Origin: Halorhodospira sp.
GTDB taxonomy: Bacteria > Pseudomonadota > Gammaproteobacteria > Nitrococcales > Halorhodospiraceae
Direction: 5' to 3'
DNA length: 38,637 nt
Assembly (NCBI GenBank): GCA_007121755.1
Contig: SKJZ01000217.1
Location: 1-38,637 of the forward strand
The position numbers and the translations under genes are program-made. The first letter of the stretch is position 1, and every line of letters begins with the position of its first letter. Below the pieces are notes generated by a model, which did no database searches, was not told where the DNA came from, and was given only the letters and a program-made list of their open reading frames with translations. Below, one piece after another: positions 11,654 through 26,677 of this stretch.

Positions 11654-13009
11654 TCAGTCGATCGTGTCCGACCCGGCCCGGGAGACCGCTTCGGCCAGCG
11701 CCTCCACCGTCCGCGCGACCAAGGCTTCGTCGTAGCCCTCAACCATCACCCGCAAGACCGGCTCGGTACCGGACGGGCGCAACAGTATCCGGCCGTCGGC
11801 GCCCAATTCCGACTCGGCCAGGCGCACGGCGTCACAGACACTGGGGCTCTCCAGCGGGTTGCCCCCCGGCGGCAGCGGCACATTCACCATCCGCTGAGGG
11901 TAGCGCTCCATGGGGGCCGCCAGTTCGGAGAGCGTTCGTTCGCGGGAGACCATCACCTCCAAGACCTGCAACGCCGAAATGATGCCGTCGCCGGTCGTGG
12001 TGCGATCGAGGCAGATGATATGTCCCGACGACTCTCCCCCGATCACCCCTTCCACGGCGCGCAGCCGCTCCAGGACATACCGGTCGCCCACCTTGGCCCG
12101 CTCCAGCGCCACATCGAGCCGCGCCAGGGCGTGCTCCAGCCCCAGGTTGCTCATTAGCGTGCCGACCACCGATCCGCGCAACTCCCCCCGCTGCGCCCGC
12201 TCCGCGGCGATCACATAGAGCAAGGCGTCGCCGTCCACCACTCGCCCGCTCTCGTCCACCATCACCACGCGGTCGCCGTCACCGTCGAAGGCGATACCGA
12301 GATCCGCTCCCTGCCGAACAACCTCACGGCTCAGCGCCTGTGGATCCTGGGAGCCGCACGCCACGTTGATATTCAGGCCGTCCGGCTCATTGCCGATCGC
12401 TGTCACCCGCGCGCCCATCTCGCGGAAGACCGAAGGCGCGACGTGGTAGGTGGCACCGTGCGCGCAATCCACCACGATATGCAGCCCGTGCAGCGTCACA
12501 TCACGGCCGACGGAACCCTTGCAGAATTCGATATAGCGCCCCGGCGCATCGGCCACCCGCTGGGCGCGGCCAAGCGCCTCGCACGCCACCACCTGCGGCG
12601 GGCGCTCCAGCAGTTCCTCCATCGCCGTCTCGGCCTCGTCGTCGAGCTTCATGCCGTCCGGACAGAAAAACTTGATGCCGTTATCGTAGTGAGGGTTGTG
12701 GGAGGCGCTGATCACCACCCCCGCTCCAGCGCGCAGCGTGCGGGTCAGGTAAGCGATGGCGGGGGTCGGCATCGGCCCCAACAGCCAACAATGGACACCG
12801 GCGGCGGAGAAACCGGCCTCCAGCGCCGACTCGAACATATAGCCGGACAGCCGGGTATCCTTGCCGATCACGACACTATCCCCGCCTTTGTCGCGAATGG
12901 TTTGCCCCGCCGCCCAACCCAGGCGGAGCATGAAGTCGGGCGTTATCGGCGCACTCCCCACCCGTCCACGAATCCCGTCCGTACCAAAGTAACGACGCGC
13001 TCCCGCCAC
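11654..13009 (-). CDS. glmM: Phosphoglucosamine mutase
   Basis: [48 protein letters not shown] start at 13009 preceded by GGAGG. The track ORF extends too far upstream. Confidence 0.95.
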
Positions 13010-13036: not shown

Positions 13037-13267
13037 GGACCGTGCGGATTCGGGCTGATCGGGAGGGGGTAGGGGTCCGGTTACGGGGGCGTCCGACGGC
13101 ATGGATGCCGTCGGTGACCGGTTTGCGGGGAGCAAACCGGGTCGCGCAAAGCGCGCCCAACGGGTGCGGACCAGGGATGGTCCGCAACAGCGTACAGGGA
13201 CGTATTCACAGCGTCCCCCGTAACCGGACCCCTACCCCCTCCCGATCAGCCCGAATCCGCACGGTCC
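13037..13267 (-). repeat. Foldback element copy 1: 53-bp perfect inverted-repeat arms around a conserved core with extra internal hairpins
   Basis: Arms 13037-13089 and 13215-13267 are exact reverse complements. Internal hairpins CGACGGCAT/ATGCCGTCG, CCGGTTTGC/GCAAACCGG, CGCGC/GCGCG, GCGGACCA/TGGTCCGC; core shared with 26532-26677. Strand given as the sense of the upstream gene folP. Confidence 0.9.
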
Positions 13268-13278
13268 ATCGAAGCCAA

Positions 13279-14124
13279 CTATTCAATCCCATCCGGCCGC
13301 CGGGCCGCCTGGGCCACGCGCACCGCGTCCGCCGTGGCCGCCACATCGTGGGTCCGCACCAGCCGCGCGCCCTGAAAGACCGCCAACGCCGCCGCCGCCG
13401 CGCCGCCGACCAGACGTTGGTCAAGCGGTCGTTCAAGCAGATTGCCGATCATCGACTTGCGCGACATGCCGACCAATACCGGCACGCCAAGCTCCACGAG
13501 GGCGTCCAGCCGCCCCAAGAGCTCGTAATTGTTGCGCAAGCTCTTGCCGAAGCCGAAGCCGGGATCGACCACCAAACGGTCTTGCGGAATCCCCGCCCCG
13601 GCTGCCGCCTCGATGCGTCCCGCCAAAAAGTCCCGCACCTCGCCCACCACGTCGCCGTAGCGGGGCGCGTCTTGCATGGTTCGGGGTTCACCTTGCATGT
13701 GCATCAGACAGACCGGGACGCCGGCATCGGCGGCGGCCTCCAACGCCCCGGGCGCGTTCAGGGCCCGAATATCATTGATCATTCCCGCGCCGACCGCCAC
13801 CGCCGCGCGCATCACGCCGGGCTTGCAGGTATCCACCGAGATCGGTACCGGCAAGGCCTCGGCCAACGCCTCGACCACCGGCAGAATGCGCCTCAACTCC
13901 TCCTTCTCATCCACCGGCGCGGCGCCGGGACGGCTCGATTCGCCACCCACGTCCACCATGGCGGCGCCCTCTTCGACCATCCGGCGGGCCTGCGCCACAG
14001 CGCTGGCCGCGCCTGTGACCGTCCCGCCGTCGGAGAAGGAGTCCGGGGTGATGTTGACCACACCAACGACCGCCGGACGCGAGAGATCCAGCCACTGGCC
14101 GCCGCAATCAAGCCCGTCAGCCAT
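13279..14124 (-). CDS. folP: Dihydropteroate synthase
   Basis: VVGVVNITPDSFSDGG, GGESSRPGAAPV, DPGFGFGKSLRNNYELL. Confidence 0.96.
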   Translation of the reverse strand: MADGLDCGGQWLDLSRPAVVGVVNITPDSFSDGGTVTGAASAVAQARRMVEEGAAMVDVGGESSRPGAAPVDEKEELRRILPVVEALAEALPVPISVDTCKPGVMRAAVAVGAGMINDIRALNAPGALEAAADAGVPVCLMHMQGEPRTMQDAPRYGDVVGEVRDFLAGRIEAAAGAGIPQDRLVVDPGFGFGKSLRNNYELLGRLDALVELGVPVLVGMSRKSMIGNLLERPLDQRLVGGAAAAALAVFQGARLVRTHDVAATADAVRVAQAARRPDGIE

Positions 14125-26531: not shown

Positions 26532-26677
26532 TTACTAGCGTTACGGAAAGTATTGCCGGAGGGAGATCTCTACGGGGGCGTCGGCGGCATGGATGCTGCC
26601 GTTGAGCGTACAGGGATGTATTTACAGCGTCCCCCGTAGAGATCTCCCTCCGGCAATACTTTCCGTAACGCTAGTAA
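26532..26677 (-). repeat. Foldback element copy 2: 47-bp perfect inverted-repeat arms around the conserved core
   Basis: Arms 26532-26578 and 26631-26677 are exact reverse complements; core GGGGGCGTCGGCGGCATGGATGCTGCCGTTGAGCGTACAGGGATGTATTTACAGCGTCCCCC. Strand given as the sense of the upstream gene pdxH. Confidence 0.92.

Follow-up and report, generated by a model that had tools for sequence, protein, structure and literature searches.

A mobile palindromic repeat of the Gammaproteobacteria, related to YPAL and with predicted CsrA-type hairpin loops, in a Halorhodospira genome

YPAL, also named RU-2, is a palindromic sequence of Yersinia (De Gregorio 2006; Delihas 2007), for which a review describes recent mobility, a possible effect on the stability of upstream transcripts, target duplications that span 3-26 bp and insertion within or close to dyad symmetry (PMC2229807). 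The Y. pestis RU-2/YPAL sequence printed by Delihas 2007 contains the same core (...CCAAGGATGGcgcggctcgaGCCTACATGGATGTATTTACGGCG...) as the repeat analysed here (PMC2759123). The RNA motif TwoAYGGAY has been predicted by Gardner and Eldai to bind CsrA, a homodimer that generally meets its motifs in pairs (PMC4333381). The CsrA/RsmA consensus, RUACARGGAUGU, is found in hairpin loops, and RIP-seq in P. putida with the proteins RsmA, RsmE and RsmI recovered an intergenic region that forms a long palindrome, together with regions adjacent to ISPpu8 (PMC7937890).

The window considered here is the whole analysed stretch of 38,637 nt, contig C17 of a Halorhodospira draft genome (G000; 2.21 Mb, 279 contigs, 82% complete), with a congener (G001) as the comparison genome from the same genus. 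The preliminary description had reported a core common to two copies of a palindrome, each with perfectly self-complementary arms, those of copy 1 being exact 53-nt reverse complements; all of this was confirmed, the core motif occurring twice in the window against 0.00 expected (none in 100 shuffles). Coordinates of both copies refer to the plus strand. The left arm of copy 1 (13037-13089; 53 nt), with an inner GGGGG conserved in the family and a copy-specific outer part, is 100% complementary to the right arm (13215-13267), its exact reverse complement. Between the arms lie hairpin P2 (13093-13114; CCGACGGC-AUGGAU-GCCGUCGG), whose CsrA-type loop, with GGA at 13103, is predicted from the fold and the CANGGANG profile of the family, and hairpin P3 (13190-13213; GCGUAC-AGGGAC-GUAUUCACAGCG; GGA at 13198). 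The core of copy 1 is composite and carries, in addition, a hairpin at 13118-13140 (CCGGTTTGC-GGGGA-GCAAACCGG, GGA in the loop), predicted from the fold and from the same insert at the G001 locus L268, a small hairpin without GGA at approximately 13142-13156 (CGCGCAAAGCGCG; fold) and a further CsrA-type hairpin at 13165-13186 (TGCGGACC-AGGGAT-GGTCCGCA, GGA at 13175; fold and positions). This multi-hairpin insert (13118-13189) stands under different arms in the congener element L268 (G001:C111), and composite cores therefore exist apart from any one arm sequence.

Copy 1 interrupts an operon on the minus strand, between the upstream gene folP (13279-14124; Pterin_bind, PF00809, E 2.3e-81) and the downstream gene glmM (11654-13009; phosphoglucosamine mutase family, PF02878/79/80/PF00408). 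Since copy 1 is antisense to folP-glmM, its GGA loops are absent from the operon transcript. Copy 2 consists of a perfect 47-nt left arm of the subfamily B type (26532-26578; TTACTAGCGTTACGG...), P2 with the loop AUGGAU (26582-26601; fold), P3 (26606-26629; GCGUACAGGGAUGUAUUUACAGCG; motif and fold) and the perfect 47-nt partner arm (26631-26677). The congener site corresponding to copy 2 (L257) holds a different long palindromic repeat, CATTGCGAGCGAAGCGAAGCAATCTCC..., which is also present in the source genome (left flank of L172). Folding energies, as single strand or RNA, are -200.3 kcal/mol for copy 1 and -115.9 kcal/mol for copy 2, with z scores of -17.9 and -17.5, respectively, against dinucleotide shuffles. 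At gathering scores Rfam identified only a single tRNA in the whole window, and no promoter was predicted on the repeat. Metazoa_SRP and Mcr7, which appeared in permissive Rfam searches, lie far under their gathering scores and were set aside as long-hairpin artefacts.

The distribution of the repeat was examined by pattern searches and with a covariance model, R1, built from an alignment of 49 diverse copies. The core pattern matched 31 times in the source genome and was present in 20 of 60 relatives, while an exact-pattern scan of named genomes returned at least 119 loci, in Halomonas, Marinobacter, Microbulbifer, Pectobacterium and others. R1 matched about 88 times in the source genome versus 10 times in the congener. 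Matches were obtained in 89 of the 387 Gammaproteobacteria sampled, representing 81 of 289 genera (counts per genome in this survey are lower bounds, to be read as 'at least'), and in 53 of 249 Pseudomonadaceae, where they reach 33 per genome. A dispersed family with a conserved core, as originally proposed, is borne out by these numbers, further copies being abundant both here and elsewhere. A first plasmid search for the repeat gave no match and a phage search a single weak partial match; R1 identified one full element on a plasmid of the alphaproteobacterium Ancylobacter. On this conjugative plasmid (pDCA, L321) the element lies beside a transposase of the ISAs1 family and a gene for haloalkane dehalogenase.

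The preliminary description could name no described family. The repeat is, on sequence and model matches, kin to YPAL/RU-2, that is, to Ysr224 on the opposite strand, and it resembles TwoAYGGAY. L322, a YPAL copy from a plasmid of Y. similis, was matched by R1 (E 3.9e-15) and by Rfam RF02770, Ysr224 (4.4e-33, minus strand). Copy 1 itself scores 25.9 bits with Ysr224 (E 7.9e-4), below the gathering score of 70 bits, and so is kin rather than a member by that cut-off. R1 also gave weaker hits in Pseudomonadaceae with large genomes, and of five such loci tested three overlap Rfam TwoAYGGAY at gathering. TwoAYGGAY is grouped with RsmW in Rfam clan CL00106, and the RsmW match on copy 1 is weak (E 0.048). 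Literature searches retrieved no paper for the core strings and no description of TwoAYGGAY as mobile. The repeat family to which the palindrome belongs is mobile, extends across the Gammaproteobacteria and is related to YPAL.

Variants of the element were also seen. Some Halomonas and Marinobacter copies (L053, L087, L130, L131, L159, L160) carry, in place of the first hairpin, a longer insert with several GGA hairpins, which suggests a modular gain of sites. The first hairpin region is extended, with an apparently inverted GGA loop (CCATCCATGG), in L121, L127, L294 and L304. In one Pseudomonadaceae genus (L299, L300, L301, L306, L311, L312) elements often occur in BIME-like pairs, oppositely oriented and separated by about 170-230 bp.

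Mobility was assessed by taking 15 local copies, joining their flanks (5.2 kb) and searching for these in the congener. For eight copies (L005, L180, L008, L012, L176, L177, L238, L242) both flanks are contiguous there and the element is absent; seven of these sites are clean empty sites and the eighth (L242, tilS) holds a short palindrome. The empty sites identify the repeat as a mobile, MITE-like insertion, and polymorphic insertion, lack of coding capacity, inverted-repeat ends and high copy number are all found in it. One insertion parts putative maf and rng genes (named by sequence inspection) that overlap in the congener. At L242 (G000:C206) the insertion is in frame, without a stop, inside a tilS-like gene, and the congener has at this site a 24-nt palindrome, GAGATCTCGAATGTTCGAGATCTC, alone, which represents a copy that collapsed or a target with dyad symmetry. 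A target duplication may be present at L180 (TGAC(G)CGCCA) and at L008 (TGA), the other sites showing no clear one. An insertion sequence was suspected of carrying the copies of G124 and G412, which are near-identical; at both loci inspected, ordinary open reading frames lie alongside and no transposase is obvious by eye.

The core forms a three-way junction of P1 (the arms), P2, a short linker and P3, the last with a conserved UUCAC bulge. In alignment A1 (49 diverse copies) 329 double-change cells were observed in this structure against 101 when shuffled. Alignment A2 (79 R1 hits, at 61 loci outside the source genome) gave 757 against 211, with 98% of cells paired, though A2 was fitted to R1, which already contains GGA, and leans towards the model. 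In both alignments the stems vary with compensating changes and the loops are near-constant; in Pseudomonadaceae, P3 stems switch between UAC/GUA, CCC/GGG, UCC/GGA and CAC/GUG around a constant loop. Both loops read C-A-N-GGA-N-G. In the 79 A2 sequences neither hairpin shows any variation in the C, the GGA or the closing G, the loop A is present in 73 of 79 at P2 and 79 of 79 at P3, and both N positions are variable. When P2 was picked by stem length alone, GGA lay in the loop or at most two bases away in 175 of 180 cases. The GGA of P2 is separated from that of P3 by 23-24 nt.

Paired GGA hairpin loops are the mark of CsrA/RsmA-type RNAs, and in sequence the repeat has them: both loops agree with CANGGANG and are 23-24 nt apart. 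The RsmE consensus is said to be CANGGANG, from work by Schubert in 2007. P3 of copy 2 contains GUACAGGGAUGU, and P3 of copy 1 agrees with RUACARGGAUGU save for C in place of U after GGA. Binding of CsrA is the best reading of the loops, as a predicted and not a demonstrated function. A csrA gene is present in the source genome. Across the 387 genomes it was detected in 81 of the 89 that have the repeat and in 251 of the 298 that lack it (p = 0.12, not significant), and of the eight element-bearing genomes in which csrA was undetected, three (G131, G181, G262) are at least 95% complete; CsrA binding for these reasons stays a best reading only. The P. putida palindrome pulled down by RsmA, RsmE and RsmI may be a copy of the present repeat. 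A literature search for CsrA together with YPAL retrieved no paper, and the portions of the YPAL text consulted make no mention of CsrA.

If the arms were constrained as DNA alone, G-U and A-C mismatches should be equally common on a given strand. Outside the source genome, arm mismatches on the GGA strand comprise 104 G-U versus 27 A-C (p = 7e-12); within it they number 21 and 27, without bias. In view of this G-U excess, selection on the RNA of the GGA strand seems to have acted on older copies outside the source genome, and strand-biased C-to-T mutation could account for part of the excess. A stem kept at the RNA level, one of the possibilities raised at the outset, finds support in the bias elsewhere, and templated correction at the DNA level finds it in symmetric changes, among them an indel shared by both arms. 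Of the copies that lie between co-directional genes, 43 have the GGA strand as sense and 22 as antisense, a modest bias (p = 0.0125) based on simple ORF calls, and of 119 placements, 27 are in gaps between convergent genes and 27 in gaps between divergent genes.

These observations bear on two alternatives. A purely selfish hairpin MITE, with the core and its GGA loops kept for a transposase that reads folded DNA and with no RNA role, would accommodate the burst of copies in one genome of the genus (88 vs 10), the empty sites, the antisense and divergent placements, the non-significant association with csrA and the absence of G-U bias in the source genome. It is nevertheless unlikely, as the 104:27 excess of G-U over A-C on the GGA strand in other genomes, the same CANGGANG tolerance in both loops and the recovery of TwoAYGGAY by R1 all stand against it. 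The probability is lower again that the repeat is a 3'-UTR stabiliser or exonuclease block, in which a long P1 shields the upstream mRNA and the GGA loops are incidental: the stem sequence is free while the loops are nearly invariant, and 27 of the 119 placements are in divergent-gene gaps, against which may be set the very stable folds, some sense-strand bias and the reported effect of YPAL on the stability of upstream transcripts (PMC2229807).

The arms are at least 15 nt long in 148 of 163 copies with enough flank, the other 15 falling short, and their median score is 46 versus 14 for arms paired across different copies; in the source genome they mostly end 45-57 nt from the core. The preliminary description had held that arms are unrelated between copies and that their pairing is kept regardless of their sequence. 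The first statement is true for the two copies of the window and does not extend to the genome as a whole, where subfamilies have alignable arms, those of subfamilies B and C being common to unrelated sites; no single arm sequence is common to all copies. Arms of subfamily B are of the TTACTAACC..CAATACC type, with ends TTACTA../..TAGTAA and CAATAC, and copy 2 is a diverged member. The second statement is upheld by this subfamily, in which mismatch between the two arms of a copy averages 2.3% as against 16.6% for the same arm between copies. When partner arms were compared with those of other copies (n=48), the partner was the closest in 40 cases, tied in 5 and worse in 3. L272 has the same 5-nt insertion in both arms. 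In the congener, two contig ends each hold part of the copy 1 ortholog, whose flanks are 81-84% identical and whose arms differ at 3 of 32 visible positions; all three are changed in both arms and none asymmetrically. Concerted evolution of the arms within a copy is shown by these sequence comparisons. For the source genome, templated correction is favoured over stepwise compensation by the symmetric indels and the lack of G-U bias, and correction is probably the means there, an inference that draws on draft assemblies; an assembly artefact is an unlikely cause of perfect arms in interior copies whose flanks adjoin in the congener.

The arms also decide on the earlier suggestion of a template-switch inverted duplication of the host flank around an inserted core, by which they would be host sequence. 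Many arms do look unique past about 28 nt from the core, and in some copies (e.g. L006) one arm overlaps an apparent gene end. However, arm sequences are likewise absent from the empty sites of the congener (e.g. L246, L247, L248), so that the arms are part of what was inserted and not a duplication of the host flank, and subfamilies B and C share arms at unrelated sites; the explanation is largely refuted and has very little probability left. Mobilisation of a REP-type element by a RAYT (TnpA_REP), also suggested earlier, is the least probable of all, since the sole Y1_Tnp (RAYT-like) gene found in the source genome (E 1.3e-6) is flanked not by the core but by its own GTAG-tagged REPs, GTAGGTTGGGCCGACGAAGGAGGCCCAACA, a separate family unrelated to it. 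At this gene (L166, G000:C277) several such REPs were seen on both sides, at 1234-1423 and 1985-2118.

The reading we favour, and consider probable, is that of a MITE-like mobile repeat, kin to YPAL/RU-2, with paired CsrA-type hairpins and concertedly evolving arms. The repeat would be a non-autonomous element with a length of about 160-190 bp, which composite copies such as copy 1 exceed. Where the GGA strand is transcribed, its two loops may bind a CsrA/RsmA dimer, the P1 stem serving to insulate and protect the two-hairpin module. A single copy could then give the transcript that carries it a site for CsrA, and a large number of copies could jointly form a distributed CsrA sink. In young copies, the arms would be kept alike by templated correction as the palindrome folds back in replication (quasipalindrome correction), to which selection on the RNA stem may be added in older copies. 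More tentatively, and with the balance somewhat against it, YPAL, TwoAYGGAY and the present repeat might constitute one mobile superfamily with a paired CsrA-docking RNA cargo, which by its spread would plug transcripts into the Csr network or build a genome-wide CsrA sink and whose stems would be kept perfect by palindrome-templated correction, whatever their sequence. Such a relationship, if true, would bring a MITE of Yersinia together with an sRNA family and an RNA motif, both of them orphans, in one mobile module, able to set CsrA sites beside genes across the Gammaproteobacteria. The repeat also offers a natural, replicated system in which the concerted evolution of palindrome arms can be measured. 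As far as could be found, what is new is the breadth of the family, its twin CsrA-type core loops, the connection with TwoAYGGAY and the evidence that the arms evolve concertedly.

Comparison with known systems places the repeat among several of them. Like ERIC, NEMIS, other bacterial MITEs and REP/BIME, it is small, palindromic, mostly intergenic, non-autonomous and of high copy number; its core, loops and arm behaviour differ from those of ERIC, NEMIS and REP/BIME, and it has no RAYT link here. With the sponge RNAs CsrB, RsmX, RsmY, RsmZ and RsmW it has several GGA-loop hairpins in common, but these are single dedicated sRNA genes, whereas the present element is a dispersed repeat with no predicted promoter of its own. 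It resembles TwoAYGGAY (RF01731, clan CL00106) in a long stem enclosing two CA-N-GGA-N hairpins and differs from it in the second hairpin and the junction, the window copies scoring below the RF01731 gathering score. With YPAL/RU-2 it has in common the core sequence, the two-hairpin architecture, a similar size (168 bp for YPAL), an intergenic location and the occurrence of empty and filled sites, which are reported for YPAL. The internal inverted repeats given for YPAL in the review have only 7 contiguous pairs in its table (PMC2229807), whereas the arms of the present repeat, often perfect, extend up to about 57 bp and vary among copies.
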